Below, one piece after another: positions 2 through 21,962 of a stretch of 26,813 bases of DNA (the first letter of the stretch is position 1; the number at the start of each line of letters is the position of its first letter). The stretch is from IMG/VR virus record IMGVR_UViG_3300021960_005941, positions 1 to 26,813 of that record; one strand, 5' to 3'. Under the pieces are notes generated by a model, which saw only the letters and a program-made list of their open reading frames with translations, did no database searches and was not told the origin of the DNA. A program made the position numbers and the translations under genes. The stretch is from a virus.

Positions 2-1006
2 CCGGAGAATTGTAAACGGTGCAAGTATGTCGAGGAACTTGATGGACGCAGCAAACGTCTTGAAGAAAACAAATATCACTATGACAACAATGCACATCTT
101 ATAGAACAAACTGCTGAAGATGGCAGTGTGCCTTATTATCCAAGCAACATCGATATACGTGTGGGTACTATTTGTAATTTAAAATGCATACACTGTGGCA
201 CAGGCGCTAGTAGCAAATGGAACGAAGATAAAGCAATGTTGGACAAGTATCCTAATACAGAGTACTACAACATTGATAACAAGTGGATCGAACAAGATAG
301 TTTTATTTGGGACAACATCAAAAAAAATTTAGAACACACAAAACGTTTTAACTTCTTAGGCGGAGAACCATTTGCCAATAAACAACACAACAAATTTATC
401 AAAGAAGTAGCATTTACTGATGTTGCAAAAGATATAACACTTACATATGTAAGCAACGGTACACTACTTACAGAGAAAGTTTTTGAACAACTTGTAAGTT
501 TTAAAGAAGTTGTTATTAGATTAAGTTTAGATGCTATACAAGAACCAGGCGAGTATTTTAGATTTCCTATTAAGTGGAATAGTTTTGTTAAAAAATTAGA
601 ACTAATGGAACAGTATGCCAAAGATAATGAACACTTGGATATTGGAGTTCAATGGACCTGTAGTAATATAAGCATGTTTTATCTAGTAGACACGTTTGAT
701 TATATGCATAAACATTTTCCAAATATTAAATTTATATTTGCTAATCATGTAGAATGGCCTGTACATATGAGCGCACAAGTATTACCAAACGAAACTAAAC
801 AAATTATAGCAGATAAAATTAATAATTACGACTTTGGAGAATATTCTGACAAAGTGCCTTTTTATGTTAACCATATGTTAGAAAAAGACTTGTGGAAAAC
901 TGAAGGTAAAACTTTTATGAATTATTTAAATGATCTTGATATAGCTCGTAATATAAGCTGGCAATATAGTTTTAAAGAAATGAAGTTAGAAAACTATAGA
1001 AAGTAA
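2..1006 (+). CDS. Radical SAM protein with preceding Cys pair (twitch/SPASM-like), 5' end outside window
   Basis: The frame is open from base 2 and enters from upstream, so this is the C-terminal 334 residues of a longer protein. The GTG at 128 is internal, not the start. The visible part opens with a C-x2-C pair (visible residues 4 and 7), then a charged linker. The radical SAM cluster follows as ICNLKCIHC (C-x3-C-x2-C, bases about 173-196), and a GGEPF motif lies at about 360-374. The 4994-6097 protein shows the same order, with GCIKC placed about 35 residues before its CNFACKTC, so the two are paralogues. Radical SAM enzymes cleave S-adenosylmethionine with a [4Fe-4S] cluster to start radical chemistry; the extra cysteines probably bind an auxiliary cluster. 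The substrate is unknown. A nitroreductase gene follows 38 nt downstream, the same partner as at 4994/6099. Confidence 0.85.
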   Translation, partial: PENCKRCKYVEELDGRSKRLEENKYHYDNNAHLIEQTAEDGSVPYYPSNIDIRVGTICNLKCIHCGTGASSKWNEDKAMLDKYPNTEYYNIDNKWIEQDSFIWDNIKKNLEHTKRFNFLGGEPFANKQHNKFIKEVAFTDVAKDITLTYVSNGTLLTEKVFEQLVSFKEVVIRLSLDAIQEPGEYFRFPIKWNSFVKKLELMEQYAKDNEHLDIGVQWTCSNISMFYLVDTFDYMHKHFPNIKFIFANHVEWPVHMSAQVLPNETKQIIADKINNYDFGEYSDKVPFYVNHMLEKDLWKTEGKTFMNYLNDLDIARNISWQYSFKEMKLENYRK

Positions 1007-1012
1007 TTATAT

Positions 1013-1021
1013 GATAAATAC
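1013..1021 (+). promoter_or_regulatory. Late-promoter-like GATAAATAC motif
   Basis: GATAAATAC differs at one base from the T4 late consensus TATAAATAc. It sits 24 nt before the ATG at 1045. It would start transcription near 1027, leaving room for the strong GGAGGAG ribosome site at 1033-1039. The same GATAAATA variant occurs on the minus strand near 19090 and 23855. It is an inference from motif and spacing only. Confidence 0.45.
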
Positions 1022-1044
1022 AAGTAATAAATGGAGGAGTAACA

Positions 1045-2073
1045 ATGACCATACTAGAATCTTTAAAAGAGGATGTGCTGGAAAAATTTCCTAATCAAAT
1101 AGTGTATCCTAATAAAACGCAAGACTTACTTGCTTACTGCGAAAAGAATGTAAATTTAATTACTGAAGCATACGAATTAGATCTTGCAGAAGGTGGTGAT
1201 AGACATACAAAGATGGTGATAAGTCAGCATTATTATGGTAATCGTCGTCAGACAAAAAATATTGAATTGCAAGTTGAGCAATGGATACATACTAAATTAG
1301 TTGAAATACTTATTAAAAACAAAAACAGAATCGAAAAGGGACATATTGAAAATTTATTTAATCTTTGGAAAAATGTTTTTGAAGGAAAAACTAGTCACGA
1401 AAATAGTCAAAGTTTGCTAGAAAAATTAACTATAAATCGTGCTAGTTATAGTGAATTTGCTCCAGATCCGGTTGACAAAGTTAAAACGCAAAAGATATTG
1501 GAAGCAGCAAATGGTATTACTCCTAGTTTAGGAAATAACTTTCACTATAGAGTTGATGTACTTCCGCAAGATGCAAAGGATGCAATGTATCCATATATGC
1601 ACGGAACGTTTGCTAATTGCACACAAGAAACAAGAAAAGAGTTTGGAGATAATCCACATGCTTACAGCGAAAAAGAATGGAGAGCAAAGGGCATTTGTTT
1701 TAACACACAATTTGAAGCACCATTAATTTTGGCATATAGCATTCCAGTTCGCATTAATGGTAGTCCAGAACATTGGAGACCTAATGAATTTGAAACCAGT
1801 AAAGATGTAACTTTGGTTGGAGTTGGCTTAAACATGTGGAATACTATTTGTACTGTAGAGGATATGGGATTAAATAGTTGTTGTCTAAGAGCATATCACA
1901 ATAAGGCACTCGAACAAATTAAAGTCTCTTCAAATGAAACTTTACCAGGCGATTGGCAATGGCAACCGTATGTATTCCTATGCATCGGTAAGGGTGTTAG
2001 ACCAAAAGGCGATCATAGAAAATACAAGCCAAGAGGTATTACTAATACTTTAAAGATTGAAGTAGCTGCCTAG
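1045..2073 (+). CDS. Nitroreductase-family FMN oxidoreductase with long N-terminal extension
   Basis: The C-terminal two thirds (from about residue 129) match the nitroreductase pattern: an NRASYSEF opening, an ILEAANGITPSLGNNFHYRV segment typical of FMN-phosphate binding, and VGVGLNMWNTICTVEDMGLNSC, the family's 'large hydrophobic helix then GLGSC' region. Residues 1-125 have no clear match and make the protein longer (342 aa) than the usual 180-220. Members use FMN and NAD(P)H to reduce nitro, quinone or enone groups, and some act as dehydrogenases on heterocycles in natural-product pathways. The ATG at 1045 has an excellent GGAGGAG site 5 nt upstream. It follows the partial radical SAM gene, and its 3' end overlaps the convergent SGNH gene by 32 nt. 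The substrate is unknown. Confidence 0.8.
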   Translation: MTILESLKEDVLEKFPNQIVYPNKTQDLLAYCEKNVNLITEAYELDLAEGGDRHTKMVISQHYYGNRRQTKNIELQVEQWIHTKLVEILIKNKNRIEKGHIENLFNLWKNVFEGKTSHENSQSLLEKLTINRASYSEFAPDPVDKVKTQKILEAANGITPSLGNNFHYRVDVLPQDAKDAMYPYMHGTFANCTQETRKEFGDNPHAYSEKEWRAKGICFNTQFEAPLILAYSIPVRINGSPEHWRPNEFETSKDVTLVGVGLNMWNTICTVEDMGLNSCCLRAYHNKALEQIKVSSNETLPGDWQWQPYVFLCIGKGVRPKGDHRKYKPRGITNTLKIEVAA

Positions 2074-2635
2074 CAAACTCTTTATGAGCTAACATACCCG
2101 GGTGGCTATTATCATTAGCCCTCGGGTATTTTTGTTTTATATGATCTAAATAAATTTTTGTACAAGAAGTATTATTCCATTGTGGTTTATCAACTGGAGC
2201 CATTAATATATGATTTAGGTTACGGTGTAAACTATTAACATGATTCATACGTAAAAATAAATCATTTATCATTTCGTAATCACTGTGTAAGTACTTAAAA
2301 AACATCTTGTCTCTTTTATCTTTGTGAGTATGATCAATAATGTGGCCAGTTTCTTTATTTTCATAGTAATGATATCTGTCTAAAAAACTCCAGTGTACAA
2401 AAACAATATCACTAGGTTTTAAATCAAAGTTTATAATAGTATGCCAAATTGCCTTATTACTATATCCTCCCTTACCTAAATTAATACACTCAACATTAAG
2501 TTCGTCGGCAATTAGTTGAGGCCACGCATACTTACTAGGTTGTGGAAATATACTGCAATTTTTTTCAAAGTTCCAAACATCGTCAAGTGCAGTGCCTCGA
2601 GTGTAACTGCATCCAAATGCTACTAGTCTAGTCAT
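2042..2635 (-). CDS. SGNH/GDSL-type hydrolase
   Basis: The N-terminus MTRLVAFGCSYTRG carries the block I serine motif (GxSxTxG-like, Ser10). Near the C-terminus NDNSHPGMLAHKEFA gives the block V Asp-x2-His pair. Block III may be the GKGGYSN region. At 197 residues the length fits a single-domain SGNH esterase or lipase, such as those that remove O-acyl groups from sugars or lipids. There is no signal peptide or membrane segment, so it should act in the cytoplasm or on virion material. It is translationally coupled to the upstream sulfotransferase-like gene by an ATGA overlap (2632-2635), with AAGGA about 6 nt before its start. Its last codons overlap the nitroreductase gene on the other strand. 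The substrate is unknown. Confidence 0.72.
   Translation of the reverse strand: MTRLVAFGCSYTRGTALDDVWNFEKNCSIFPQPSKYAWPQLIADELNVECINLGKGGYSNKAIWHTIINFDLKPSDIVFVHWSFLDRYHYYENKETGHIIDHTHKDKRDKMFFKYLHSDYEMINDLFLRMNHVNSLHRNLNHILMAPVDKPQWNNTSCTKIYLDHIKQKYPRANDNSHPGMLAHKEFARQLLQSLKY
2094..2138 (+). terminator. Rho-independent terminator for the + strand nitroreductase transcript
   Basis: A stem of ATACCCG (2094-2100) pairs with CGGGTAT (2123-2129). An inner stem of GGCTA (2104-2108) pairs with TAGCC (2116-2120) around a 7-nt loop. A T-rich tail, TTTTTGTTTT-like, follows on the + strand only. It lies 20 nt after the + strand stop at 2073, so it would end the radical SAM-nitroreductase transcript. 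It is embedded in the C-terminal codons of the opposite-strand SGNH gene. Confidence 0.8.
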
Positions 2636-3144
2636 ACTAGATCCTTGATGACATTTTCAAATTCAATCTTTAAATTATCGTGGTTTATTATTACATCCGA
2701 AAACATATAAGGGCTTGTATAATAACCACTAAGTGCTACACTAGTATCAAAGTCTCCTATTTGTTTTAGCGTGTTTATATCATCTAGCATATCTTCGTGA
2801 TATATAGTTACTGATTTGCCCCAGTTATAGTTATTCTGTTGTGCATCGTGTAAATCATAACGAAACTTGGTATATGCAAAACTATCAAGTAGACACTCAA
2901 TATCTGTTGTAATACTTAACTCTTGGCCAGTGTACGGCCCGTATTCTTTTGTGTGGCTTGTTACTACTCTACTACATACCATATTCCACCAATTGTGTCT
3001 TTTACTGTTAATAAATACCCAGTTAGTAGGATCGTCGGGTATCCATAACTCTTGACAATGAACATGTTCTATGTTATTATTGTTTAAGTAAGAAGTGATT
3101 ATATGACTGCCTGTGCGCCCTGGAGTTTTAATTAGATGCTTCAT
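2632..3144 (-). CDS. Sulfotransferase-like P-loop protein
   Basis: The N-terminus IKTPGRTGSHIITSYL resembles the 5'-phosphosulfate-binding loop of sulfotransferases (PRTGS type) starting near residue 7. The SKRHNWWNMVCSRVV stretch could be the 3'-phosphate-binding Arg/Ser region, as in Stf0-like proteins. At 170 residues it is short for the family (usually 220-300), so the C-terminal acceptor-binding part is reduced. It would transfer sulfate from PAPS to a hydroxyl or amine; the acceptor is unknown. It is the first gene of a two-gene minus-strand unit with the SGNH hydrolase (ATGA overlap). No Shine-Dalgarno site precedes the ATG. Instead a perfect TATAAATA ends 5 nt before it, which hints at a leaderless late message. 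A second sulfotransferase-like gene lies at 7777. Confidence 0.6.
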   Translation of the reverse strand: MKHLIKTPGRTGSHIITSYLNNNNIEHVHCQELWIPDDPTNWVFINSKRHNWWNMVCSRVVTSHTKEYGPYTGQELSITTDIECLLDSFAYTKFRYDLHDAQQNNYNWGKSVTIYHEDMLDDINTLKQIGDFDTSVALSGYYTSPYMFSDVIINHDNLKIEFENVIKDLV

Positions 3145-3157
3145 GTAAATATTTATA
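3144..3157. promoter_or_regulatory. Possible bidirectional late promoter
   Basis: The minus strand has a perfect T4-type late motif TATAAATA at 3150-3157, reading toward the gene starting at 3144. The plus strand has the one-mismatch TGTAAATA at 3144-3151, reading toward the gene at 3167, whose GAGGA site (3158-3162) would fall right at the message start. The core TAAATATTTA is palindromic. Both activities are inferred from motif only. Confidence 0.5.
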
Positions 3158-3166
3158 GAGGACTAT

Positions 3167-4282
3167 ATGACCAAAGACTTAAAATGGAGTAATTATGACT
3201 TTACAAAAATACCATTTGACGATATTGTTAGTGTTGGTCAGCGTACCCTGCTGTATCGTGACATATTTACTGTTAGTTGGCTACTGGGAAGATTCTGCAA
3301 TTACAAGTGTAGTTACTGTTGGCCCTACGCACGGTCAGATAGAAAAGATCATAGACCAACAGAACTATGCCTTAGCACAATTAATGAGATAAAGAGACAA
3401 GCACGTGAAAACGGATTTAATAGTTATCATTTTAGTCTTAGTGGGGGTGAGCCTACTTTCCATCCTGGCTACTTGGACATTTTACAGCATCTGGCTGATG
3501 ACGTAGACAATACAAACTACACTAGTGTACACATGACATCTAACTGTAGTCGCAATATGGCATGGTTTGAAAAGTATGTAGAAGCAGTCAAGCCATTCCA
3601 CCGTGCCAGTATTACAGCAAGTCTGCACACAGAACATTTAAATACAGTTGAGAAGATGCAAGACTTTGCAGATAAACTAATCTTCTGTCAGGAGCACGAT
3701 GTTCAAGTTACAATCAATATGGTTATGGTTCCAGACTGGTTTGAAAGAGATTGGGAAAACGCCCTGTTCTTCCACGAGCAAGGAATCAACGTTACACTCA
3801 AGCCACAATCAGACCCTACTGCTAGTAGGGTGGTTGATGGATACAAACCGGAGGACCTAAAGCGTTTGCACAACGGTATGCCACAACGTGCATACACTGA
3901 AAGCAAACGCAAATGGGCAGAACGTCCTAAGCCTGCTTTTCAAATACCTACCGGAGTCGATGGCAAGTTAGACACAAGTATACCGTGGCACATGCAGATT
4001 GAGTTTAAAGACAAAGAAGGTAACGCATGGTATATGGATCAAGCAGAACGCTTTAATGCATTTGGCTTTAACAAGTTCAAAGGCTGGAGTTGTAATGCAG
4101 GGTATCAAGGTATTATTATACGTGAACCAGATGGTAGTGTTAAACGTAGTTACAGTTGTCACGATGTTCCACTAGGTAATATCGAAACAGGATTTAAATT
4201 ATTTAATGCGCCAGCTCCTTGTATTACTAATAGTTGTGTAAGTAGTGCAGATAGTAAAATACCAAAGAGAAAGCATGTCTAA
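3167..4282 (+). CDS. Radical SAM protein with C-terminal SPASM-like cysteines
   Basis: The radical SAM cluster is RFCNYKCSYCW (C44, C48, C51), with GGEPT at residues 93-97 for SAM binding. The C-terminal part has C309, C331, C352 and C357 in a 'C-N-A-G ... G-S-V-K-R-S-Y-S-C-H-D ... LGNI ... P-C-x4-C' arrangement typical of SPASM or twitch domains that hold auxiliary Fe-S clusters. Such enzymes modify peptides or other substrates; anaerobic sulfatase-maturating enzymes and RiPP maturases are the known relatives. The length (371 aa) fits. The ATG has a GAGGA site 4 nt upstream and lies just after a possible bidirectional late promoter. It is the first gene of the long + strand operon to 12942, and its end overlaps the next gene by 8 nt. 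The substrate is unknown. Confidence 0.85.
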   Translation: MTKDLKWSNYDFTKIPFDDIVSVGQRTLLYRDIFTVSWLLGRFCNYKCSYCWPYARSDRKDHRPTELCLSTINEIKRQARENGFNSYHFSLSGGEPTFHPGYLDILQHLADDVDNTNYTSVHMTSNCSRNMAWFEKYVEAVKPFHRASITASLHTEHLNTVEKMQDFADKLIFCQEHDVQVTINMVMVPDWFERDWENALFFHEQGINVTLKPQSDPTASRVVDGYKPEDLKRLHNGMPQRAYTESKRKWAERPKPAFQIPTGVDGKLDTSIPWHMQIEFKDKEGNAWYMDQAERFNAFGFNKFKGWSCNAGYQGIIIREPDGSVKRSYSCHDVPLGNIETGFKLFNAPAPCITNSCVSSADSKIPKRKHV

Positions 4283-4994
4283 ACAAGAAACTATAGTATA
4301 CAAAGACTACCTTGGAGGTATTATTAGAGAACACCTGTCGGGTATAGCTAGAGAATACATTGGCGCCCCTGCTGATATTCCAAGTGGAACATTTTGGTTT
4401 AGAAAAGGTAATATACATAAACTAGACGAGATACAAAAGTTTAGTAAACATTTTATCGAACCGTTATTAGATAAAGAATGTTTTTTAATTGGCGATACAG
4501 CCTTTATGTTAAATCATCCACCGCATGATATACATATTGATTGTCCTAATTTAAAAGACGATATCAAAGGATATAAGAGTGTTGTAATACCTCTCGAAAT
4601 AGATACAGACAATTATCCTATGCTATATACTGCTGATCAATATTACTATGGGCCTACTACACGTTTTAGAGCAGGATGCGAAGAGTTAGATAATAATGAC
4701 GTAGTTAAAAATCAAAAAGCAAACGGTGTACATTTTAGTTATGATTATGAAGCTGATGGTGTAAAGCATTTAAGTAATTCAATTACTGAAGAATGGTATA
4801 CTGAGCATATTGATGAACCCATACATGTTCCGTATAGTAGTTTCAAAGGTATAAGTATAGAAAAGTCTAATGAATGGAAGCCTAGTAGTGTAATTATTTT
4901 TGATAGTTCGAGGATACATTTTGCTGAAAAAATTCAAAAAGTAGGTGCTACTTATAAAATCGGCATTAGTTTAAATTATGGAGTGAAAGCCTAA
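4275..4994 (+). CDS. Putative 2OG-Fe(II) dioxygenase-like protein
   Basis: The metal-binding pattern is H87-x-D89 (HDIHIDCPN) and a distal H215 in FDSSRIHFAEK, followed 13 residues later by K228, which could contact 2-oxoglutarate in place of the usual Arg. This is the spacing expected of the double-stranded beta-helix dioxygenases that hydroxylate or desaturate with O2 and 2-oxoglutarate. I chose the ATG at 4275 over the in-frame GTG at 4245 because it limits overlap with the upstream radical SAM gene to 8 nt, the style of this operon. The stop overlaps the next ATG by one base (TAATG at 4992-4996). It lies between two radical SAM genes. The substrate is unknown, and the fold is inferred from motif only. 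Confidence 0.6.
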   Translation: MSKQETIVYKDYLGGIIREHLSGIAREYIGAPADIPSGTFWFRKGNIHKLDEIQKFSKHFIEPLLDKECFLIGDTAFMLNHPPHDIHIDCPNLKDDIKGYKSVVIPLEIDTDNYPMLYTADQYYYGPTTRFRAGCEELDNNDVVKNQKANGVHFSYDYEADGVKHLSNSITEEWYTEHIDEPIHVPYSSFKGISIEKSNEWKPSSVIIFDSSRIHFAEKIQKVGATYKIGISLNYGVKA

Positions 4995-6097
4995 TGCCTT
5001 ATTGCAATGTTTTAAATAATCATGTATGTATTCGATTACCTGGTAGATATGCTCCTTGCTGTTATTGGAATAAAGATACAACTAAATTTCAAGATAATCC
5101 AAAGAAATATTTTACTACTATTGATAAACCATTTAAAGAATATATTGCCAGCGAATTGCATCAAGATGTTGTAAAGGTTATGAATGAAGACGGTGATTGG
5201 CATCCAGGATGTATAAAATGTAAAAATTTAGAAGACGCTGGACTTCCTAGTATAAGGCAAAAAATTAACGAACATCTTCCAGATAAAAATATACAATATA
5301 TGCAAATAAGTTTAAGCAATCATTGTAATTTTGCTTGTAAAACTTGTGATTCACGTAGCAGTAGTACAATTATGAAAATGGTAGATGCTAATCCAGAATT
5401 AGCAAAATGGTTTCACAAAGGTGAACTAATTACAAATACAGATTATAAAAAAGTATTTGATAACATTGACTTGAAAAATTTACAGCTTATTGAGTTTTTA
5501 GGTGGTGAACCGTTTGTAGATCCACAAACTACAAATTTTTTAAACTATCTACTAGAACACAGTAATTTATCAAATGTAACATTTAAAGTTCATACTAACA
5601 CTAGTTTCTTTCCAAAAAAACTTGTACCTATTTTAGCACAAATGAAAAGAATAAATTTACACCTTAGCGTTGATTCTTGGCATCGTAGTGTTGAATATTC
5701 TCGATTAGGATCAAATTTTGAAATAATTAAAAAAGTCACAAATCAGTGGATTGAATTTTCGAAACAATACAAAAATACTTACATAACACTATTTCCGACA
5801 GTAAACGCTTTTAATGTTAAATATTTAAAAATGACAAAAGAAGCAGCAGAAGAATTAGGTATAGATTTTGGATACGAATGGGTAGAACATCCTAAGCAAC
5901 TAAATCTAAACGCCTTGCCTGAAAGTTATGTTAATTCAATTAAAGATGATTACAATAAAAATTTCTTTAAAACTTATAAATTCAATCAACAGCAGTTTGA
6001 TGATTTAAAAGATTTTTTAAAAGACACCGACGGAGCACAAGGAAAATATCTCAAAGACTACCTACCAGATTTGGCTAAATATATTAAAGGAGAGTAG
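4994..6097 (+). CDS. Radical SAM protein with N-terminal (permuted) twitch/SPASM-like cluster
   Basis: Cysteines come before the radical SAM core: C4, C11, C21-C22 (YAPCCYW) and C72/C75 (GCIKC). The SPASM-like 'C...G-x-Y-A-P-C-C' and 'C-x2-C' elements are therefore N-terminal rather than C-terminal. The core follows with NHCNFACKTC (C110, C114, C117) and LGGEPF at residues 168-173. The same arrangement is seen in the partial gene at 2-1006. Predicted chemistry is SAM-radical modification helped by an auxiliary Fe-S cluster; the substrate is unknown. The start overlaps the upstream stop by one base. The stop is followed after one base by a nitroreductase gene, repeating the pairing found at 1006/1045. 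Confidence 0.85.
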   Translation: MPYCNVLNNHVCIRLPGRYAPCCYWNKDTTKFQDNPKKYFTTIDKPFKEYIASELHQDVVKVMNEDGDWHPGCIKCKNLEDAGLPSIRQKINEHLPDKNIQYMQISLSNHCNFACKTCDSRSSSTIMKMVDANPELAKWFHKGELITNTDYKKVFDNIDLKNLQLIEFLGGEPFVDPQTTNFLNYLLEHSNLSNVTFKVHTNTSFFPKKLVPILAQMKRINLHLSVDSWHRSVEYSRLGSNFEIIKKVTNQWIEFSKQYKNTYITLFPTVNAFNVKYLKMTKEAAEELGIDFGYEWVEHPKQLNLNALPESYVNSIKDDYNKNFFKTYKFNQQQFDDLKDFLKDTDGAQGKYLKDYLPDLAKYIKGE

Positions 6098-6098
6098 C

Positions 6099-6746
6099 AT
6101 GGAAATCACTCACAAAGATATTGAAAAAGCAATTATTAGAAGTCAGCATTGTCAAAGAAATTTTGATTTGTCACAGGCAATGCCAGACGAGGATATTGAT
6201 CTTTTAATTCATGCAGTAACAAATTGTCCAAGTAAACAAAACATTTCATATTATAAAGTGCATGTAATTACTGATAAGGATACTGTACTTGCTATTCATA
6301 ATATGACAGACGGATTTACAAAGAATTACGATACTGGCGAAACTACAACAAATAGTCAAACACTAGCAAATGTATTGTTTGTATTTGAAAGAGAAGACTT
6401 TACAGTAAATTCATTAGGTTCAAGTAGAAATCAACAAACTGTAAATCTTACAAATGATGACTTAACCAAAGAAGATTGGAATTCATTTAAAAAAGATAGC
6501 CATATGAGTACAGGTGTAGCAGCTGGTTATGCAAATCTTACTGCAAGTATTCTTGGATATAATACAGGGTGTTGTGCTTGTTTTGATAACGAAGCAATCA
6601 AAGAACATCTTGGAATATCAAATGATATAATGTTGTTAATGGGCATTGGGTACAAAAACGAAGAAGTTAACAGACGTGTACATCCTGTTACTGGATTTAA
6701 ATTTCCAGCACTAAAGAAACAGGAAATCACAGTTAACCGCATTTAG
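6099..6746 (+). CDS. Nitroreductase-family FMN oxidoreductase (second copy)
   Basis: The opening RSQHCQRNFD, then IDLLIHAVTNCPSKQNISYYKVHVI, is the nitroreductase N-terminal pattern (Arg-rich FMN phosphate contact, then 'A..aPs..n..p+.v.vi'). The central SHMSTGVAAGYANLTASILGYNTGCCACF matches the 'g.a..n..l.A...Gl..c' helix region, and IMLLMGIGYKNE is the family's 'i..++.+G+p' strand. The length of 215 residues is normal, without the extension seen in the 1045 copy. It has a GGAGAG site 4 nt before the ATG and follows the radical SAM stop by one base, so the two are almost certainly co-translated. It should use FMN and NAD(P)H; the substrate is unknown. Confidence 0.85.
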   Translation: MEITHKDIEKAIIRSQHCQRNFDLSQAMPDEDIDLLIHAVTNCPSKQNISYYKVHVITDKDTVLAIHNMTDGFTKNYDTGETTTNSQTLANVLFVFEREDFTVNSLGSSRNQQTVNLTNDDLTKEDWNSFKKDSHMSTGVAAGYANLTASILGYNTGCCACFDNEAIKEHLGISNDIMLLMGIGYKNEEVNRRVHPVTGFKFPALKKQEITVNRI

Positions 6747-6747
6747 T

Positions 6748-7239: not shown

Positions 7240-7780
7240 AAAATTAGATAATTTACCTACATTTGATTTATATAACGAATTTAAAAAATTAAATATTAAT
7301 TGGTATCAAAATCAAGTTTGTATTAATACTATACCTGGTGTAGATGATTACAAATTAGGATGCGGTAGTTTGCAATATAACTGGGAAGAAGCAGAAACTC
7401 GTGTAAACAACAACGGAGAAGAATATACGCATGTTCCTGAGTACAATATTAAGTACACTGAAAAAGATTTTACAGTCTTGTGTTCATTATTCGTTGACAC
7501 ATTATTTGAATCCGTATATAATAGTATAACAAAAGAATATAATATAGGTCGACTACGATTAATGAAGTCAAAGCCAAAGACTTGTTTAAGTTGGCATAAA
7601 GATACTTCTCCTCGTTTGCATTTTCCAGTTAAAACGCAAGAAGGATGTATTATGGTTATTGAAGACGAATGTTTTCATATACCAAACAACGAATGGTATT
7701 GGACAAATACTGTAGTTAAGCATACGGCTTTTAATGGTAGTAAAGAAGAAAGAGTACACCTAGTAGCAACACTATTATGA
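7226..7780 (+). CDS. Aspartyl/asparaginyl beta-hydroxylase-like dioxygenase
   Basis: The C-terminal half shows the aspartyl/asparaginyl beta-hydroxylase signature: SWHKDTSPRLHFPV (H124-x-D126, then R130 and HFP), distal H166 in KHTAFNGS, and EERVHLVATLL with R176 for 2-oxoglutarate. Members hydroxylate Asp or Asn side chains, or free amino acids, with Fe(II), O2 and 2-oxoglutarate. Length is 184 residues. It overlaps the SDR gene by 14 nt and is coupled to the next gene by an ATGA overlap (7777-7780). A related signature recurs at 10504. The substrate is unknown; a peptide or amino acid would fit the family. Confidence 0.75.
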   Translation: MKYFKKLDNLPTFDLYNEFKKLNINWYQNQVCINTIPGVDDYKLGCGSLQYNWEEAETRVNNNGEEYTHVPEYNIKYTEKDFTVLCSLFVDTLFESVYNSITKEYNIGRLRLMKSKPKTCLSWHKDTSPRLHFPVKTQEGCIMVIEDECFHIPNNEWYWTNTVVKHTAFNGSKEERVHLVATLL

Positions 7781-8322
7781 AATGTGCAGTAATATCAAAT
7801 CCAAGAACAGGATCAAGGTCTTTAGCCAACAAATTATCATTACAGTTTGATAATCCTATTGGGTACCTTCATTTTGCTGAAAGTGTAGAAAGTAGTTGTT
7901 TAACGTATCAAGAACTGATATCACAGGATTGGATATTACACGGACATTGGCACACTTTACATAATCTTTCAGATCAATATATACAGCATATCAAACAAAA
8001 TTACACAGTATACGAAATTGTTAGAGATCCGTTACATAGATTTATAAGCTCAATTATAACAATGGCAACAGGCAACATAGATTTTCAGTTCAAAGATATT
8101 CCTGCAAAAATTGATACTAAATTAGTTTATAAATACTTTGAAAGAATGTCTCTAGTAAACAAGAATAAACTTGACTGGAACGTTAATACATGTTATAATT
8201 TTAATAAGATGTATAATAATACAAGTTTAGACAATTTTAAAAGAAATATTTCTGCTATAGAAAATTATCAAGAAATACAAAGTCTTTACTATAAAATAAC
8301 AAAGGAAATACATGGTAGTTAA
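7777..8322 (+). CDS. Sulfotransferase-family protein
   Basis: CAVISNPRTGSRSLANKL at the N-terminus is a 5'-phosphosulfate-binding loop (PRTGS). YEIVRDPLHRFISSI near residues 84-98 is a clear 3'-phosphate-binding motif (VRDP..R..S). Residues H54-H58 (HGHWHT) could include the catalytic base. At 181 residues it is compact. It would move sulfate from PAPS to a hydroxyl; the acceptor is unknown. There is no ribosome site; translation is likely coupled through the ATGA overlap with the dioxygenase gene before it. It overlaps the desaturase gene by 11 nt. This copy has a much better 3' motif than the one at 2632. Confidence 0.78.
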   Translation: MKCAVISNPRTGSRSLANKLSLQFDNPIGYLHFAESVESSCLTYQELISQDWILHGHWHTLHNLSDQYIQHIKQNYTVYEIVRDPLHRFISSIITMATGNIDFQFKDIPAKIDTKLVYKYFERMSLVNKNKLDWNVNTCYNFNKMYNNTSLDNFKRNISAIENYQEIQSLYYKITKEIHGS

Positions 8323-8965
8323 TAGTTTATTATTTGGAGTGCTTTGGTACCAAATTATTGCTCATGTGGGTATCAGTGCAGGGTTACATAGATATTGGGC
8401 TCATCGTGCATTTATTGCCGGAACATTTTTTGAAATACTAACGCTTTATATGAGTGTAATCGCCGGTTCTCGCAGTCCTATTGGTTGGATTGCTGCACAC
8501 CGTATGCACCACCATCATAGCGATACTGAGTTAGATCCACATAGTCCAAATACCAAAGGCTTTTGGAAGGTATTTTTTAGTCTATGGACAATACCTAGTA
8601 TTCCTTCTAAGTATAGTAGAGACTTGTTTAGCAATCCTCGAATGCTGTTCTTTCACAATCATTGGTTTAAAATATGGTTAACAAGTGCAATTGTTTGTTT
8701 TTTGATTAGTCCGTATGTATTTTTGTCATTTATTATTATACCTGCTGTGTTGTCAACAATTGGATTTGGATTGGTAAATGCACTTACACATAATGGATCT
8801 CAAGTGCATAACGTACCATGGATAAACTTGTTAGTTGCAGGTGAAGGATATCATAAAGAACATCATAACGGACTGAGCGTAAGATATCACAAATATGATT
8901 TTACTGGTGCAGTATTAGAGTTTATGATTAATATTGGAGTCATCGAATCAAATGGAAAGAAATGA
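8312..8965 (+). CDS. Membrane fatty-acid (delta-9-type) desaturase
   Basis: Three histidine boxes typical of acyl-CoA or acyl-lipid desaturases are intact: HRYWAH (residues 26-31), HRMHHHH (63-69) and GYHKEHH (179-185), with the fourth ligand probably in THNGSQVHN (160-166). Hydrophobic spans lie near residues 5-20, 36-60 and 123-155. The enzyme inserts a double bond into an acyl chain using a di-iron centre, O2 and an electron donor in the membrane. At 217 residues it is shorter than the usual 260-320, with only a short lead before box one. AAAGGA lies 5 nt before the ATG. In the island it may tailor a lipid or change host membrane fluidity; which of these cannot be told. Confidence 0.85.
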   Translation: MVVNSLLFGVLWYQIIAHVGISAGLHRYWAHRAFIAGTFFEILTLYMSVIAGSRSPIGWIAAHRMHHHHSDTELDPHSPNTKGFWKVFFSLWTIPSIPSKYSRDLFSNPRMLFFHNHWFKIWLTSAIVCFLISPYVFLSFIIIPAVLSTIGFGLVNALTHNGSQVHNVPWINLLVAGEGYHKEHHNGLSVRYHKYDFTGAVLEFMINIGVIESNGKK

Positions 8966-9566
8966 AATAAAACAAAACGAATTAGTGCTGTCTGAAGAAG
9001 AAGAAAGAATTCATAAACCTCGTTTGAATAGACGGTTGTGGTTAAATTGTGACACTGATAGTTGGCCTAGCAGCGTTAAAGAAAACGCAATATGCCCACT
9101 GAGCATAACTGTTGAAAAAGATTTACAACTAGAACTACTTGAAATAGCAAAAACGCTTGAATACAAGGATGTTCATTCAGTTCTAAACATTTGTTTTTGG
9201 CCGGATTGTGCCGCTACAGATTTACTTAAAGAAAAGTTTTCAATTTTTGCTGAGGATATTGACAAGTACCTTGTGTTAAGAAATCGTCCGTTAGAGTCTG
9301 TTTATCCTCATAAAGATCCTGTTAGAGGAACAAGTATATACCTGCCGTTGGGTCCTCTTGGAAGCGAATACAAACCTTTAGAAATATATTATGATAACGA
9401 CGAATATGGTGTTCCAGAAAATGATACGCCTATTGTATATGCTTGGAACACAAAGGCTACTCATGCTGTTTTTAACAATAATAATTATAGATACAATATG
9501 CAAGCAAGTTTAAATCTTCCTTACGCAGAGGTGTTTGAAAAATATCGTAATGTATTTAAAGTATGA
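8952..9566 (+). CDS. Putative 2OG-Fe(II) dioxygenase-like protein
   Basis: The signature is SVYPHKDPVRGTSIYLPLGPLG (H120-x-D122), distal H171 in NTKATHAVFNN, and R180 in NNYRYNMQASLNLP. This fits the HxD...H...R layout of the cupin-type dioxygenases. The first 40 residues are acidic and then Arg-rich and match nothing I recognise. I used the ATG at 8952 rather than the TTG at 8934; GGAG at 8936-8939 serves either start poorly. It overlaps the desaturase by 14 nt and the methyltransferase by 17 nt. The substrate is unknown. Confidence 0.6.
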   Translation: MERNEIKQNELVLSEEEERIHKPRLNRRLWLNCDTDSWPSSVKENAICPLSITVEKDLQLELLEIAKTLEYKDVHSVLNICFWPDCAATDLLKEKFSIFAEDIDKYLVLRNRPLESVYPHKDPVRGTSIYLPLGPLGSEYKPLEIYYDNDEYGVPENDTPIVYAWNTKATHAVFNNNNYRYNMQASLNLPYAEVFEKYRNVFKV

Positions 9567-10254
9567 TGTAAAAAAATACTTTAATGCTATTAAGGCATTA
9601 GACAGCACTAAAGTTTTAGACTTTGGTTGCAATCATGCAAACTTTCTCAATGAAAAGTTTACCGGTGAATATATTGGTTTAGATATTGATAGCAGAATAA
9701 TCAAAAACAACAAAAAAACATATCCACAACATCAGTGGATACACTACAACAAATACAACTATCAATACAATTGTGAGTATAGCACTACGGATGATTGGCC
9801 TGATATACCAACAGGTATCGAAACAGCAGTTGCTTTTAGCGTGTTTACTCATACTACATTTGATGAATTTTCTTATACAACAAACAAACTGAAATCGCAC
9901 ATTGCACCCGGTGGAGATATACTGGCAACTTTTTTTAGTTCGATTGATCGAGATTCAATATATAAGATATTATCGCATAGACAAGAATATTTTTCTGGTC
10001 ATGAAAATTATATTGTAGAAAAGATTTCAAACAAGGATGTAGTATACCTTTGTGTAAACACTGTATCAAATCAAATATTAATATTTGATAACATAAAAGA
10101 TTTGCCAAAGTTTTCTAATCATATGTATTTTTTAACTTTTTACAACGATGAATGGTTATCTACTAAACTTCAAGGACATGTAGTTGATGTTACTGATAAC
10201 TTTACAAATATAATGAGCACACAAAAATGTCTAAGATTATCTATAACTCGTTAG
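9550..10254 (+). CDS. Class I SAM-dependent methyltransferase
   Basis: Motif I is TKVLDFGCNHANF (residues 20-32), motif II YIGLDID with acidic D45/D47 for the SAM ribose, and AVAFSVFTHTTFDEF is the motif IV region. IAPGGDILATFFSS is the post-IV strand. The C-terminal 100 residues are specific and unknown. A Rossmann-fold methyltransferase of this type acts on small molecules, sugars or proteins. The ATG at 9550 keeps the overlap to 17 nt. A TTG at 9535 lies 3 nt after AGAGG and is an alternative start that would add five residues. It overlaps the next small gene by 28 nt. Confidence 0.75.
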   Translation: MYLKYDVKKYFNAIKALDSTKVLDFGCNHANFLNEKFTGEYIGLDIDSRIIKNNKKTYPQHQWIHYNKYNYQYNCEYSTTDDWPDIPTGIETAVAFSVFTHTTFDEFSYTTNKLKSHIAPGGDILATFFSSIDRDSIYKILSHRQEYFSGHENYIVEKISNKDVVYLCVNTVSNQILIFDNIKDLPKFSNHMYFLTFYNDEWLSTKLQGHVVDVTDNFTNIMSTQKCLRLSITR

Positions 10255-10520
10255 TTAAACTACCTAAGTCATTTGATACTGTTGAACAAGCATTGTCCTA
10301 CATAGAAGAAATTGTCGGTGTTCCGCCGTTTTTGCACACTATACATTCAGACTTTCAATTGATAAACAGTGATCATATAAATATTACTAGATATTTTGAT
10401 ACATTAGAAAGTTATCAGCAATGGATATTTTCCAAAGAACGTAATACACTAGATCAGCAGTTGATAGATTTAGGATTTTATCTTTATACAAAGCAGGCCC
10501 ACAATGACAGCATTACTTAA
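10227..10520 (+). CDS. Small protein of unknown function
   Basis: This 97-residue protein is not recognised. The middle, from about HSDFQLINSDHINITRYF followed by a 'tLESYqqWi' helix, faintly recalls ferredoxin-like dimeric alpha-beta barrels (monooxygenase or stress-response type), but there is no diagnostic residue. There is no Cys-rich core, leader-like region or membrane span, so it does not look like a ribosomal peptide precursor. It overlaps the methyltransferase by 28 nt and the next hydroxylase by 17 nt, in line with operon style, which supports its being real. No good ribosome site is present. Confidence 0.6.
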   Translation: MSKIIYNSLVKLPKSFDTVEQALSYIEEIVGVPPFLHTIHSDFQLINSDHINITRYFDTLESYQQWIFSKERNTLDQQLIDLGFYLYTKQAHNDSIT

Positions 10521-11223
10521 CAGAAAACAACTCCCCGCCTTTTTAAAATTGCCCTATCAGTTTGATATGAATAAACTACTAACAGCATTTGAAAAATTTA
10601 GCAATCCAGAGTTATACAATGATTTAGATGCAAGCAATCCGGATAGTGCATATGGCGATTTTTACAATAGTAAAACAAAATTAGATCATCTAAAAAAGTT
10701 TGCAAATACTTCAGAAAACGTTTCGCAGGGCAGTAAATTTTATAGACAGCTAAGTTTAACAGAGTTTGACGGTGAACGCCCTGAGCGCAAGTTAGACAAT
10801 GATACTCGTGTTGCAACTTATAGGAAAAGTACCAACGTAGAAGATCCTGCGTACCAAGCAGTAATGGACGAGAGACGTTATACACGCCGTAAAGATATAT
10901 GTACCGGGTACTGGAATGATGTATTAGACACGTTTAAAGCACCTGTAACACGCACTAGATTTGCGTATATGGCACCGGGTCATAGTATTAAGCCTCATAT
11001 AGACTATAATACTACATACAGCATACGTGTGCATATTCCTATTATTACAAATCAAGATGCCGTAATGTGCGTAAAAGATAAAAATGGTATTAATAAAATA
11101 CACATGCCAGCAGACGGTTCGGTTTACTTTTTAAATACCGGACTTACACATTGGGCAGAAAACAACGGAACCGAAGGAAGAACACATCTTGTGATATCTC
11201 TTAACGGACAGGATGATTTGTGA
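10504..11223 (+). CDS. Aspartyl/asparaginyl beta-hydroxylase-like dioxygenase (second copy)
   Basis: The signature is TRTRFAYMAPGHSIKPHIDY (H165-x-D167), IRVHIPI with R175, distal H216 in NTGLTHWAENNG, and EGRTHLVISL with R226. This is the same beta-hydroxylase pattern as at 7226 but with a longer N-terminal half (239 aa). Residues 40-135 are rich in Asp, Lys and Arg and carry no known motif. It should hydroxylate using Fe(II), O2 and 2-oxoglutarate; the substrate is unknown. Its stop overlaps a GTG start (GTGA) of the following gene. Confidence 0.75.
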   Translation: MTALLNRKQLPAFLKLPYQFDMNKLLTAFEKFSNPELYNDLDASNPDSAYGDFYNSKTKLDHLKKFANTSENVSQGSKFYRQLSLTEFDGERPERKLDNDTRVATYRKSTNVEDPAYQAVMDERRYTRRKDICTGYWNDVLDTFKAPVTRTRFAYMAPGHSIKPHIDYNTTYSIRVHIPIITNQDAVMCVKDKNGINKIHMPADGSVYFLNTGLTHWAENNGTEGRTHLVISLNGQDDL

Positions 11224-11861
11224 TTTTAGAAATTAGTGAAATTGATACTAATCTACTGTTTAGTCCTGCTGCTACGTTAGAGCAAGATACCCGTCCGGCA
11301 GACATATACACATTTATACCAACTGATTATCCTGAGTTAGCAAAACAGTTAACAGACTTTAGCAATGAATTGCACTTTAGAGATGATCACAGATTAGTAA
11401 AGAATTATATTAATATGGATTTTTTACAGTTTCCTTTTGTGACTATGTATAAACGTGATAAACAAGTAGTAGGATTTGCCACAGGGCATGTGCGAGATTG
11501 TTATCCTAAAAATAGTGTGAGGCTGTTAAACAGATTTTATCATGATAAAACATACAGTAGAAAAAAATTCACACGAGAACTTCTACGACCCAGCACATTT
11601 TGCTGTATTCAACAACAAATGATTACTGCATCGAGCCTAGGGTTTGATACAGGATTTATCAGTAGAGAGTTGAGAGCAATCAAGTTTTTTAGTAGATTTA
11701 TTAAAGAACTTGACAAACGCGGCACACACAGTTGGGAATATAAAGAAGGGCCTTTTTTAGTATCGCCTGACGCCCAAGATACTAAGTCGTGGCAAAGTCT
11801 TGCACTTGTAGAATTTAAAAAAACACATCATAATTTTTGGAGTCATTGGAAATGCAAATAA
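11220..11861 (+). CDS. Unknown protein, weakly GNAT-like
   Basis: Not firmly recognised. FVTMYKRDKQVVGFATGHVRD near residues 74-94 followed by a long helix (STFCCIQQQMITASSLGFDTGFISRE) resembles the strand-turn-helix order of GNAT acyltransferases. The glycine-rich acetyl-CoA loop (Q/RxxGxG/A) is not evident, so acetyltransferase activity is doubtful. The C-terminus is rich in aromatic and basic residues (FKKTHHNFWSHWKCK). The GTG start at 11220 is supported by AGGA 6 nt upstream and by the GTGA overlap with the stop before it. It overlaps the next gene by 10 nt. Confidence 0.6.
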   Translation: MILEISEIDTNLLFSPAATLEQDTRPADIYTFIPTDYPELAKQLTDFSNELHFRDDHRLVKNYINMDFLQFPFVTMYKRDKQVVGFATGHVRDCYPKNSVRLLNRFYHDKTYSRKKFTRELLRPSTFCCIQQQMITASSLGFDTGFISRELRAIKFFSRFIKELDKRGTHSWEYKEGPFLVSPDAQDTKSWQSLALVEFKKTHHNFWSHWKCK

Positions 11862-12388
11862 AACTACACGACCCTTTTGTAATAGAAACAGGCATAAAAG
11901 GAGATTACGATTTTTTTGCTCCTTACATGGATCAAATGGAATGGACTGATACTAATAAACTGTACGCAGAACATGAAGAGTACCAGGACACTATGTATGG
12001 AAGAAAAATGGTACATCATTACATCAAACATATTAACAAGTATGATATAAAATTAAAAAAATTTATAATCAAAATGTTTAAAGAGTTCGGTGTGCCTACC
12101 AAAGACTGGCGTGCTGATTTCTTTTTAACCAAGGCTGGTGGGAGTATGCCAATGCATATTGACGGTATGAGCAAGGTTGCATTTTTGTTGCCGCTGTCAG
12201 AAAATACTGGACCTGTAGTATGCGAACACAATAATAAAAACTTTGAATTAACTTATCAATCTTTAACTATACTAAATACGCAAGTTAGTCACGGTGTATC
12301 TGCACCAACTAAAGATCGGTTGCTGTTTAGAATAGCAGTGCATGATGTAATGTTTGAAGAGTTAGGTATATATAAAAAACTACAATGA
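11852..12388 (+). CDS. Putative 2OG-Fe(II) dioxygenase-like protein
   Basis: The signature is ADFFLTKAGGSMPMHIDGMSK (H102-x-D104) followed by AFLLPL, then distal H147 in LNTQVSHGVS and R156/R160 in KDRLLFRIAV. The strand pattern matches the beta-hydroxylase-type members nearby but is shorter (178 aa). I chose the ATG at 11852, which has GGAG 9 nt upstream, over the TTG at 11837. It overlaps the previous gene by 10 nt and is coupled to the next by ATGA (12385-12388). The substrate is unknown. Confidence 0.65.
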   Translation: MQIKLHDPFVIETGIKGDYDFFAPYMDQMEWTDTNKLYAEHEEYQDTMYGRKMVHHYIKHINKYDIKLKKFIIKMFKEFGVPTKDWRADFFLTKAGGSMPMHIDGMSKVAFLLPLSENTGPVVCEHNNKNFELTYQSLTILNTQVSHGVSAPTKDRLLFRIAVHDVMFEELGIYKKLQ

Positions 12389-12942
12389 TTTGTGTCTTGC
12401 CAAATTTTCCGCAGGCAGTAATTGATGCTGCTGTAAATTTTTCTACAACAACAGATACGTCTGACGAATTCTCCTTAGGTGGAGATCCAAGAACATTCTG
12501 TATTCAATGTCCTCCTGATTTAATCTCGTTTATTAATAAATCTTTACCTGTTACAGCTGACGATGTTCATCGTTTTAGATTTACTAAAGGATCTTCCAAT
12601 CCGCATTGCGATTCAAGAAGAAAAGTTGCATTACAAATTCCAGTACAAATTGATTATTCGTCTTCTAGATGTTTTTATGCTAAGGAAAAGTTTCTTAAAA
12701 AGTTAGTCGAAATTGAATCACCTAATAAGACAGGCGATGACGGCATTGTTCGAAAATCTCAACGATGGCAATATGAATCTAAATATTTTGATCATTACGA
12801 TTATCGTTTGCCATTTTTAATGGATACTAAATATCCCCACGGGGGGTACGTGGTATCTGATACTAATACTATTTTATTATCAGTATCGTATTACGATTTG
12901 TCATATAAACAATTATTACCTGCTTTTTCAAAATTTAAGTAA
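12385..12942 (+). CDS. Divergent dioxygenase-like protein lacking the usual 2OG Arg
   Basis: A possible metal triad is H74-x-D76 (SSNPHCDSRRKVALQIPV) and H152 (YPHGGYVVSD). The HxD is followed by the same 'RR-x-A-x-Q-I-P' type strand seen in the neighbours. After the distal His, where family members have an Arg or Lys about 10 residues on, this one reads SDTNTILLSVSYYD with no basic residue. It may bind another co-substrate or be inactive. An insert of about 60 residues (KFLKKLVEIES... to ...YDYRLPFL) separates the two halves. It is the last gene of the + strand operon; its stop abuts the stop of the opposite-strand gene with no spacer. Confidence 0.5.
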   Translation: MICVLPNFPQAVIDAAVNFSTTTDTSDEFSLGGDPRTFCIQCPPDLISFINKSLPVTADDVHRFRFTKGSSNPHCDSRRKVALQIPVQIDYSSSRCFYAKEKFLKKLVEIESPNKTGDDGIVRKSQRWQYESKYFDHYDYRLPFLMDTKYPHGGYVVSDTNTILLSVSYYDLSYKQLLPAFSKFK

Positions 12943-14325
12943 TTAAAGAGACTGGTCTCCTTTGTATTTTAATACAGTATTTCCTTCGCTGGCCTTGCGA
13001 CATACTGTATTAATATTCATATTATTAGTATGTTCTATTAAACGTGCATTCCTGTCTTCTCTAACAGTCTTGGTGTTTCCGTTTATCTCCCAATATGTGT
13101 GATCAAATACATCAAAGTCAAAATGCTTGTCACTTAGCGGAGACCCTGGAAGAATAAACAACTGTTCTCCCATAGCAATAGTTGGAACTACATCTGCATA
13201 CTTTGTATTGATTAATGTAATTAAATCTAATGTTTCTTGGAAGTCTTCTTCTGTTTCGGTTATGTATCCTATAATAAACAAAAATACTGCTTTGAGATTG
13301 TATTTCTGCATATTGTTCATAAAGAATATTAAATCATCGTTGGAAAACATTTTACCCATGTGCTGTCTCACACTTTCACTTCCGCTCTCTACACCGGGCA
13401 ACACTACCTTAAAGTTTGCATCTGCCATTAGTTTGTAGTCTTCCTCTGGCATTTGTTTAGAAGGTCTAATAATTATTTTGGTTTCAAAGTTCATTGGAAA
13501 TTTTTCAGCAGCCATTAAGGTTAATAATTCTCGAAATTTACTCATACTGCCGTTAAGTAAACTATCGGCAAATTTTACGTCTTTTACCTCTGGATATTTG
13601 TCTCTTATAATTTTTAAATCTTCTACTATTTTACTAGGGCTTTGGAATTGGAATTTTGACCAAAGACTTTTTACATCACAAAAAGAACAATTTAACACAC
13701 ATCCTTTGCTGGTTCTTATGTAAATTCCGCCATTGTATCTCGACAAATTCAAATCATCGAAATTGCCAACAGGAATATCGTCCATGCTAAGTTTCTTGTC
13801 TATATAGTAATTGTTTATTCCAGGGTGCGATTCGTTGTTCAGCAATTTAACCAATGCTTCTTCGCCATCACCGGGTATACTATAGTCTATTAAATTGTCT
13901 TCTAGAAATTTTTTTGAAACAGTGTTTGACCCTGGTCCGCCTATAACTATCTTTTTATCAGGGAAATGTTTTTTAAAAAATACGCTAAGTTTTTCAGCAG
14001 CATATGCACTTTCAAAACTAAAAAGAGATAAACCGATGTACTTGCAAGTAATAGGAATATTTGTTTCAAAATATTCTTTAATCCAAGAATAGTTTATTTT
14101 CCATATGCGATCAAACTCATCGTTTTGAAGTAAGTTTCCTTCTACAGTGCCAAATGACCAATATTGTCTTTCCTTGCATACATCATAAAAATCTCTATTC
14201 CAATCTAAGTAAGTTGACTGTATATTATTTTTTAACAAGTATGCTTTTAGAACCGCCGGACCAGCGGGCGGCGTATCGGGCGAGATTTTAGGAACGCTTA
14301 CAAATACAATTTTACATTGAGCCAT
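12943..14325 (-). CDS. B12-binding-type radical SAM protein
   Basis: The N-terminal 160 residues form the Rossmann-like B12-binding type fold: IVFVSVPKISPDTPPAGPAVL, IGLSLFSFESA, KKIVIGGPGSN and YSIPGDGEEAL. The cobalt-ligand DxHxxG motif is not seen, so cobalamin may be held without a protein His, or not at all. The radical SAM core follows with RTSKGCVLNCSFCD (C209, C213, C216) and VVLPGVESGSESV. The length of 460 residues is typical. Known relatives do methyl transfers to unactivated carbons, ring contractions or methylthiolation; the substrate here is unknown. It abuts the + strand operon tail to tail and follows the subtilase by 24 nt. There is no ribosome site, only TATAAATA ending 4 nt before the ATG. 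Confidence 0.85.
   Translation of the reverse strand: MAQCKIVFVSVPKISPDTPPAGPAVLKAYLLKNNIQSTYLDWNRDFYDVCKERQYWSFGTVEGNLLQNDEFDRIWKINYSWIKEYFETNIPITCKYIGLSLFSFESAYAAEKLSVFFKKHFPDKKIVIGGPGSNTVSKKFLEDNLIDYSIPGDGEEALVKLLNNESHPGINNYYIDKKLSMDDIPVGNFDDLNLSRYNGGIYIRTSKGCVLNCSFCDVKSLWSKFQFQSPSKIVEDLKIIRDKYPEVKDVKFADSLLNGSMSKFRELLTLMAAEKFPMNFETKIIIRPSKQMPEEDYKLMADANFKVVLPGVESGSESVRQHMGKMFSNDDLIFFMNNMQKYNLKAVFLFIIGYITETEEDFQETLDLITLINTKYADVVPTIAMGEQLFILPGSPLSDKHFDFDVFDHTYWEINGNTKTVREDRNARLIEHTNNMNINTVCRKASEGNTVLKYKGDQSL
12945..12970 (+). terminator. Weak hairpin at the convergent operon end
   Basis: AAAGAGA (12945-12951) can pair with TCTCCTTT (12956-12963) around CTGG with one bulged C, followed by GTATTTT. 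It lies directly after the + strand stop at 12942, inside the 3' end of the opposite gene. The stem is short and AT-poor only in its middle, so termination is uncertain. Confidence 0.3.
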
Positions 14326-14329
14326 ACAG

Positions 14330-14337
14330 TATTTATA
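14330..14337 (-). promoter_or_regulatory. Perfect T4-type late promoter motif TATAAATA
   Basis: The minus strand reads TATAAATACTGT directly before the ATG at 14325, matching TATAAATAcT. The gap to the start codon is only 4 nt. In T4-type late promoters transcription starts about 6 nt after the motif, so a message from here would begin at or in the start codon. The overlapping TTGACA (14339-14344) has no -10 at the right distance. Confidence 0.6.
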
Positions 14338-19051: not shown

Positions 19052-19062
19052 TTGAAATTCTC

Positions 19063-19102: not shown

Positions 19103-19111
19103 AAGTAATTA

Positions 19112-19420: not shown

Positions 19421-19423
19421 TCA

Positions 19424-20023: not shown

Positions 20024-20026
20024 GTA

Positions 20027-21960: not shown

Positions 21961-21962
21961 GA

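Follow-up and report, generated by a model that had tools for sequence, protein, structure and literature searches.

The DNA studied here is the IMG/VR virus record IMGVR_UViG_3300021960_005941, a linear record of 26,813 bases (hereafter the window), in which an island of 20 genes, most of them enzyme-like and four of them encoding radical S-adenosylmethionine (radical SAM, rSAM) proteins, spans positions 2–14325. We found that these genes form only the right end, cut off by the contig edge, of a 30–60 kb island present in hundreds of viral contigs, and that the set is not one pathway: it consists of one conserved gene, RS2 (3167..4282, + strand), together with interchangeable cassettes, some of which keep the same order in other phages. 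The island runs past the left edge of the window, so that 2–14325 holds only a fragment of it, and in the relatives RS2 is the last member of a core of anchor genes in fixed order. We tentatively favour the reading that this core is expressed early and makes a glycoconjugate with swappable decoration, most likely on the host envelope and directed against rival phages.

In 13 islands, the same series of anchors was found, namely p115-GT8a-GT8b-p192-GTL2, then GTL1-MT-p75-HLE rSAM, then rS465 and finally RS2. To the left, the tail-fibre genes FIBa/FIBb lay directly before p115. Variable rSAMs and other genes stood between GTL2 and GTL1, more variable rSAMs stood between rS465 and RS2, and to the right of RS2 there was an oxygenase/transferase block like that of the window, followed by tail genes on the opposite strand. 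GTL2, rS465, and RS2 were present in all 13 islands, MT (a methyltransferase) and HLE in 12, and GTL1 and p75 in 11. When 20 large viral records were compared, some of them near-copies of each other, rS465 and the glycosyltransferase (GT)-like genes were found in 19, the exception being a record with RS2 at the contig edge. p75 encodes 75 amino acids, is about 75% identical across its 11 islands, and always lies between MT and HLE (for example G001:C1:80510-80740, − strand); clustering of the open reading frames of at least 30 amino acids in the loci and islands showed it to be the only conserved small protein, conserved over its whole length. The sequence-only reading of the window had seen no glycosyltransferase, which is correct within the window, whereas the islands of those 19 relatives carry GT-fold genes. 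Their absence here is due to the cut contig, and the conserved core escaped that reading because it lies off the window contig. The same reading had joined the island genes into one pathway and proposed conserved versus shuffled gene order as the test. The anchors were conserved in order, while the cassette genes turned over. A one-pathway reading is therefore supported for the core, given its fixed order in the 13 islands and its recurrence on bacterial chromosomes, but it does not extend to 19 of the 20 window genes, which are non-core.

RS2 was the only invariant gene among the 20 island genes of the window. At least 594 relatives were present in IMG/VR, the best 80 of which were all at least 80% identical, and 61 distinct phage RS2 proteins shared 77–100% identity, with a mean of 85.5%. 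For these 61 proteins, the mean pS was 0.77 and pN was 0.12, indicating that silent sites are saturated. This saturation rules out recent horizontal spread as the source of the similarity, and the conservation is thus attributed to old purifying selection. Among the 32–50 reciprocal best matches between four nearly whole relatives, RS2 ranked first to third, with rS465 close behind; by mean identity, RS2 (85%) stood above two genes named by eye, one DNA-polymerase-like (65%) and the other portal-like (59%). Among 50,697 phage records, RS2 and GTL2 had no match and rS465 had no close match; none was found for RS2 in cultured phages. Seven cysteines of RS2 were invariant in 30 aligned rows, three of the cluster (C44, C48, and C51) and four near the C-terminus (C309, C331, C352, and C357). 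RS2 scored 46.0 bits on the N-twitch model NF033640 (cut-off 170) and 41.3 bits on the viperin model NF038283 (cut-off 180), and is a member of neither family. An AlphaFold model of RS2 built from 30 close homologues reached a pLDDT of only 55.6 and was used only weakly; the matches of this low-confidence model include viperin, EpeE, a sactipeptide maturase, and anSME.

The cassettes were counted in 60 non-redundant loci, all selected with RS2 as the query. Apart from RS2 itself (60/60), the commonest genes were OX2, encoding an Asp/Asn beta-hydroxylase-like protein, in 30 loci and the nitroreductase gene NTR2 in 25, followed by OX4 (15), the desaturase gene DES (14), and the SDR gene (10), which often lay beside OX2. 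RS1 was found in 7 loci, NTR1 in 4, the window's own MT in 2, and RS3 and OX3 in 1 each, while ST2, g97, and OX6 were found in none. The 170 kb sibling G001 showed 91% DNA identity to window positions 18544–26813 and 90% to the protease gene PROT, but its island differed save for RS2 (93% amino acid identity) and a few homologues of about 50% amino acid identity or less, including OX2, SDR, and NTR2. Some runs were shared: the order RS1-NTR1-SGNH(-ST1)-RS2 recurred in loci L006, L057, and L061, and DES-OX3-OX4-GNAT-OX5 recurred in L030. In permutation analysis of pair adjacency for the window families, the OX2/SDR/NTR2 pairs were weak and near the shuffled expectation, and RS1-NTR1-SGNH and OX4-OX5 were suggestive with small counts. 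The number of Radical_SAM matches per record was 10–23 across the 20 large records, except for one incomplete record with two. Because the relatives mostly carry this many and the sibling flank matches so closely, the gene density is neither chance nor mis-assembly; a mis-assembled host contig, which had been named as the outcome that would undo the island, was rejected on the basis of the matching flank and the roughly 60 non-redundant loci. Relatives also encode proteins of the TauD, AMP-binding, PLP-like, and PP-loop kinds; in G001, a tryptophan-halogenase-like gene (phrog_2928) lay within the island (L243:7769-9184, + strand). Cofactor supply was considered as a general island feature and set aside: SAM synthetase (MetK) was found in 7 of the 20 records and an A-type Fe-S carrier in 5, some of these records being copies, and we treat both genes as supportive at most.

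The core is shared with bacteria. Homologues of RS2, 59–67% identical to the phage protein, were found among housekeeping genes on Bdellovibrionota chromosomes, in 17 of 291 sampled genomes. At the nine loci with enough context, rS465 was adjacent in all nine, a GT-like gene was present in eight, and HLE in seven; RS2, rS465, and the HLE rSAM are thus accompanied by a glycosyltransferase-fold protein on these chromosomes too, and p75 was absent from the loci examined. The phage and Bdellovibrionota RS2 proteins formed separate clades (support 93/99 and 99/99), so the gene was not acquired by phages over and over again. On a single chromosome (L093), RS2 and rS465 stood next to the complete run FIB-p115-GT8a-GT8b-p192-GTL2, all proteins being diverged. 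This was the only genome of the 291 with GT8b, and since the other 16 of the 17 RS2-bearing genomes lack it, the full core set is not always needed. A fibre operon that travels with RS2 in bacteria was accordingly rejected, and the fibre as substrate was demoted. We also observed a dense radical SAM array without RS2, mostly N-twitch-like proteins with unknown partners, at about 745–774 kb of the Bdellovibrionota chromosome G043:C1 (L245-L247). Five RS2 contigs (L082, L083, L085, L095, and L098) are filed in metagenome-assembled genomes of Rickettsiales, Gammaproteobacteria, Chloroflexi, and Acidimicrobiaceae. They carry phage-island genes, and L083, whose RS2 is 85% identical to the phage proteins, has a series of neighbouring genes in common with L040; several of these contigs therefore look like phage sequence misplaced in such bins. 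The contig of L095 further encodes two giant collagen-like proteins of 1186 and 1662 amino acids with GSSGSAG repeats (L254:3-8877) and with parts that by eye resemble phage fibres.

Two classes of promoter were found. Sites of TATAAATA, which we take to be the T4 late promoter, were counted in 14 islands, the window included, and were depleted overall (53 observed versus 149 expected); 25 of the 53 lay 8–70 bases upstream of gene starts, against a background of 3.3% (p ~4e-23). FIBa was preceded by such a site in five islands, and in the window such boxes precede ST1 (3150..3157, − strand) and RSB12 (14330..14337, − strand). Together with T4-type polymerase and recombination genes recognized by eye in the relatives, this signal supports the earlier description of the phage as T4-like; by the ATPase and a fibre gene, the nearest cultured relatives are PA5oct-like jumbo phages. 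In contrast, a sigma-70 consensus (TTGACA-N15/16/17-TATAAT, at most two mismatches) was found upstream of RS2 in 35 of 56 loci, compared with 2.7% of random ATGs. In 33 of these 35 the −10 box ended 5–6 bases before the RS2 ATG, for example just above G001:C1 70679 (− strand), and a leaderless early RS2 mRNA is therefore predicted. Sigma-70 promoters were also present before two other anchors, p115 (eight islands) and GTL1 (seven islands). A general sigma-70 scan of the window gave no excess over shuffles, the signal being confined to anchor genes in the relatives. These patterns suggest that the anchors open early transcription units, with cassettes added behind them.

With regard to chemistry, a profile search of the GT-like family against PDB yielded only noise, and the fold model of GTL2 was used instead. 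This model had a pLDDT of 90, and its Foldseek matches were mostly glycosyltransferases and nucleotidyltransferases. The best solved structures were SunS/ThuS (E 1.7e-5, TM ~0.3, 10–12% identity), and D64 and D66 of a DxD motif were conserved. By its model, GTL2 has a GT-A fold and is not close kin of SunS/ThuS. GT8a and GT8b are GT-like by DxD-type motifs only, with no Pfam match above cut-off. One phage island also carried a DegT sugar-aminotransferase-like gene and an NAD-sugar epimerase.

In the window, the 20 genes fill 2–14325, neighbours overlapping or standing only a few bases apart, which bears out the dense packing seen in the sequence-only reading, and all but one or two are enzyme-like. 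Only 10 of the 20 reached a Pfam gathering cut-off (four Radical_SAM, two Nitroreductase, two Asp_Arg_Hydrox, one Sulfotransfer_2, and one FA_desaturase). All four rSAM proteins contained CX3CX2C. RS1 (2..1006, +), which has lost its N-terminus at the contig end, and RS3 (4994..6097, +) are N-twitch radical SAM proteins (NF033640, 242.9 and 197.3 bits, respectively, cut-off 170); RS2 (PF04055 8e-14) combines CNYKCSYC with its C-terminal four-cysteine, SPASM/twitch-like region; and RSB12 (12943..14325, −) is of the B12-binding type (PF04055 2e-19; PF02310 weak; nearest NCBIfam models below cut-off). The nitroreductase-family proteins are NTR1 (1045..2073, +; PF00881 5e-8) and NTR2 (6099..6746, +; PF00881 3e-13), and the fatty-acid-desaturase-family protein is DES (8312..8965, +; PF00487 6e-12). 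HxD was present in all six proteins that had been listed as HxD...H dioxygenase-like, but a Pfam match was obtained only for the Asp/Asn beta-hydroxylase-like OX2 (7226..7780, +; PF05118 1e-8) and OX4 (10504..11223, +; PF05118 2e-11). OX1 (4245..4994, +), OX3 (8934..9566, +), OX5 (11837..12388, +), and OX6 (12385..12942, +) had no Pfam or profile match; in the 24-row alignment A4 that contains all four, the H, the D, and the distal H were invariant (H97, D99, and H225 of OX1), and we call them putative dioxygenases from this motif.

Among the transferases, ST2 (7777..8322, +) is a sulfotransferase (PF03567 9e-5, above cut-off; phrog_3347), while ST1 (2632..3144, −) is sulfotransferase-like by its P-loop motif TPGRTGSH only. 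Motifs likewise identify the SGNH-like hydrolase (2042..2635, −; GCSYTRG, no Pfam match above cut-off, homologues of 26–71% identity in other islands) and the SDR-like NAD-binding protein (6748..7239, +; TGHTSGIG). The class I methyltransferase-like MT (9535..10254, +; PF08242 6e-5) and the GNAT-like acetyltransferase (11220..11861, +; PF00583 0.023) had below-cut-off or weak matches. The earlier tally of four rSAMs, two nitroreductases, six HxD...H proteins, two sulfotransferase-like proteins, a desaturase, an SDR, a methyltransferase, and an SGNH hydrolase is thus borne out by Pfam and motifs; it lacked the GNAT-like protein and g97, a 97-amino-acid orphan without matches (10227..10520, +). 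The structural edge of the island is PROT (14350..17241, −), a subtilisin-like tail protein of 963 amino acids (phrog_9158; phrog_3677, protease; phrog_677, baseplate/tail-fibre connector; 91% identical in G001), the C-terminus of which is connector-like and a much-diverged form of which adjoins other islands. Beside it lies g599 (17252..19051, −), tail-fibre-like by eye (phrog_25721 weak; 57% in G001), and a QueE-like gene (26069-26812, −) at the right end closes the set of minus-strand phage genes.

Anchor order, RS2 conservation, cassette turnover, sharing with Bdellovibrionota, the GTL2 fold model, and the promoter classes are the observed basis of the reading we favour, whereas the core as one pathway, the glycan as its product, and the location and use of that product are inferred. 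In the proposed mechanism, a scaffold would be made by the fixed core (GTL2, GTL1, the GT-like GT8a/b, the methyltransferase, and the three rSAMs HLE, rS465, and RS2), with RS2 and rS465 performing obligatory radical steps on it. Phage-specific decoration would then be added by the cassettes, that is, by rSAMs, HxD oxygenases, nitroreductases, sulfo-, methyl-, and acetyltransferases, SGNH hydrolases, and desaturases. The anchors would start transcription units with strong host-sigma-70 promoters, behind each of which cassettes are gained and lost, and given these promoters the core is expected to be made early in infection. On the envelope of the infected cell, the decorated glycan or glycoconjugate might hide receptors from competing phages, a contest that we propose as the cause of the hypervariable decoration. 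Several points weigh against this. RS2 in the window has no sigma-70 promoter; immediately before it is the divergent ST1, and late-type boxes occupy the space between the two genes. The homologous promoters in the relatives are non-independent observations. GT8b is missing from nearly all RS2-bearing Bdellovibrionota genomes, and the TM-scores of GTL2 to solved glycosyltransferases are low. A polymerase, flippase, or lipid-carrier transferase was not encountered, although no search for them was made, so that the envelope glycan stays a proposal. Finally, the fibre genes adjoin the GT operon, which is compatible with virion decoration too. We consider the reading plausible, at somewhat less than even chance.

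Virion decoration is the most serious of the alternatives, although we regard it as unlikely. Here the glycosyltransferases would glycosylate the phage's own tail fibre, and the rSAMs, hydroxylases, and sulfotransferases would elaborate the sugar, giving tunable receptor binding. The position of FIBa/FIBb directly before p115-GT8a-GT8b-p192-GTL2, the same FIB-to-GTL2 order beside RS2/rS465 with diverged proteins on one Bdellovibrionota chromosome, the tail genes PROT and g599 at the island border, and the peptide S-glycosyltransferases SunS/ThuS as the nearest solved folds to GTL2 all fit it. The promoters argue otherwise, since the fibre genes have late-type promoters and the GT operon is served by a separate sigma-70 promoter before p115, with which it begins, and so does the rarity of GT8b in RS2-bearing bacteria. 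Only slightly less probable, and in our view likewise unlikely, is a diffusible or intracellular small molecule, either a natural product or a modified peptide, aimed at the host or at competitors. Many rSAM/SPASM enzymes have peptide substrates, and this precedent, the EpeE, sactipeptide maturase, and anSME matches of the low-confidence RS2 model, and the natural-product-like enzyme mix of the relatives (rSAM, TauD, AMP-binding, PLP-like, PP-loop, and tryptophan-halogenase-like proteins) point that way; however, no precursor peptide, NRPS, or PKS was seen, and p75, the sole conserved small protein, is conserved over its whole length and missing from Bdellovibrionota.

Known phage hypermodification systems employ rSAMs and transferases, and a hypermodified DNA base would be compatible with the early promoters. 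The QueE-like gene of the window and GTP cyclohydrolase I in the relatives suggest 7-deazaguanine chemistry, but these genes lie outside the island, the window island has no TET/JBP-type oxygenase, base glycosyltransferase (Pfam, PHROG), or nucleotide kinase, and RS2-bearing bacteria have the core without adjacent phage replication genes; we judge this product quite improbable. In G001, GTP cyclohydrolase I and a by-eye DpdA-like protein (LLGDSGGFQIAKG; no Pfam match) were located (L241:3935-4618, +, and L302:11888-13441, +), and with the QueE-like gene they suggest a 7-deazaguanine DNA modification encoded outside the island. Least probable of all is a loose set of auxiliary metabolic genes, unrelated to one another and gathered at a recombination hotspot, with RS2 merely an essential resident. 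The rarity of most genes, their differences between siblings, and the near-shuffled adjacency of pairs such as OX2-SDR would be natural in such cargo, whereas anchors in one set order across 13 islands, the core in bacteria, and the near-uniform enzyme class would be unexpected of it.

The usual view is that a lytic phage takes one or two enzymes from its host. The widespread aquatic phage family described here instead devotes 30–60 kb to redox and transfer reactions, the oxygen-sensitive tailoring enzymes of its island numbering up to two dozen, and two of the island enzymes exceed a DNA-polymerase-like gene in conservation. The anchors RS2, rS465, HLE, GTL, and MT make a short list for expression and assay, and the Bdellovibrionota copies permit genetics without phage culture. 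If cell-surface or virion decoration is correct, the island would be a direct record of phage–phage competition. It is conceivable, at rather less than even chance, that three rSAMs, GT-A glycosyltransferases, and a methyltransferase constitute a new pathway, common to an abundant uncultured phage family and Bdellovibrionota, for a new class of radically modified glycoconjugate diversified by cassettes; if so, it would be a virus-encoded, diversity-generating assembly line with core enzymes better conserved than most phage genes.

None of the open-licence papers searched was found to describe the anchored core, its conservation, its sharing with Bdellovibrionota, or its promoters. Prokaryotic viperins (NF038283) resemble RS2 in the radical SAM core, by sequence and by the low-confidence fold, but lack its four additional invariant C-terminal cysteines. 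The twitch-domain radical SAM family NF033640, for which no described function was found, includes RS1 and RS3 but not RS2, and the glycosin S-glycosyltransferases SunS/ThuS share with GTL2 only a common GT-A-type fold. The host recognition cluster of pelagimyophages, marine T4-like phages with radical SAM-related cassettes, is similarly a large hypervariable island beside tail-fibre genes with glycosyltransferases (here in the relatives, not in the cut window), but mostly 10–23 rSAMs per record are found here, and the account of that cluster contains no core of anchors in set positions (PMC7029224). The environmental viral genome TARA_ERS488813_N000010, T4-like and 183 kb long, contains 12 radical SAM genes, reported as Fe-S metabolism; it is rSAM-rich as here, with no core, order, or pathway described (PMC5332604). 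Radical SAM-rich T4-like phages and rSAM cassettes are therefore already known, and the core pathway itself has a real chance of being new in kind.

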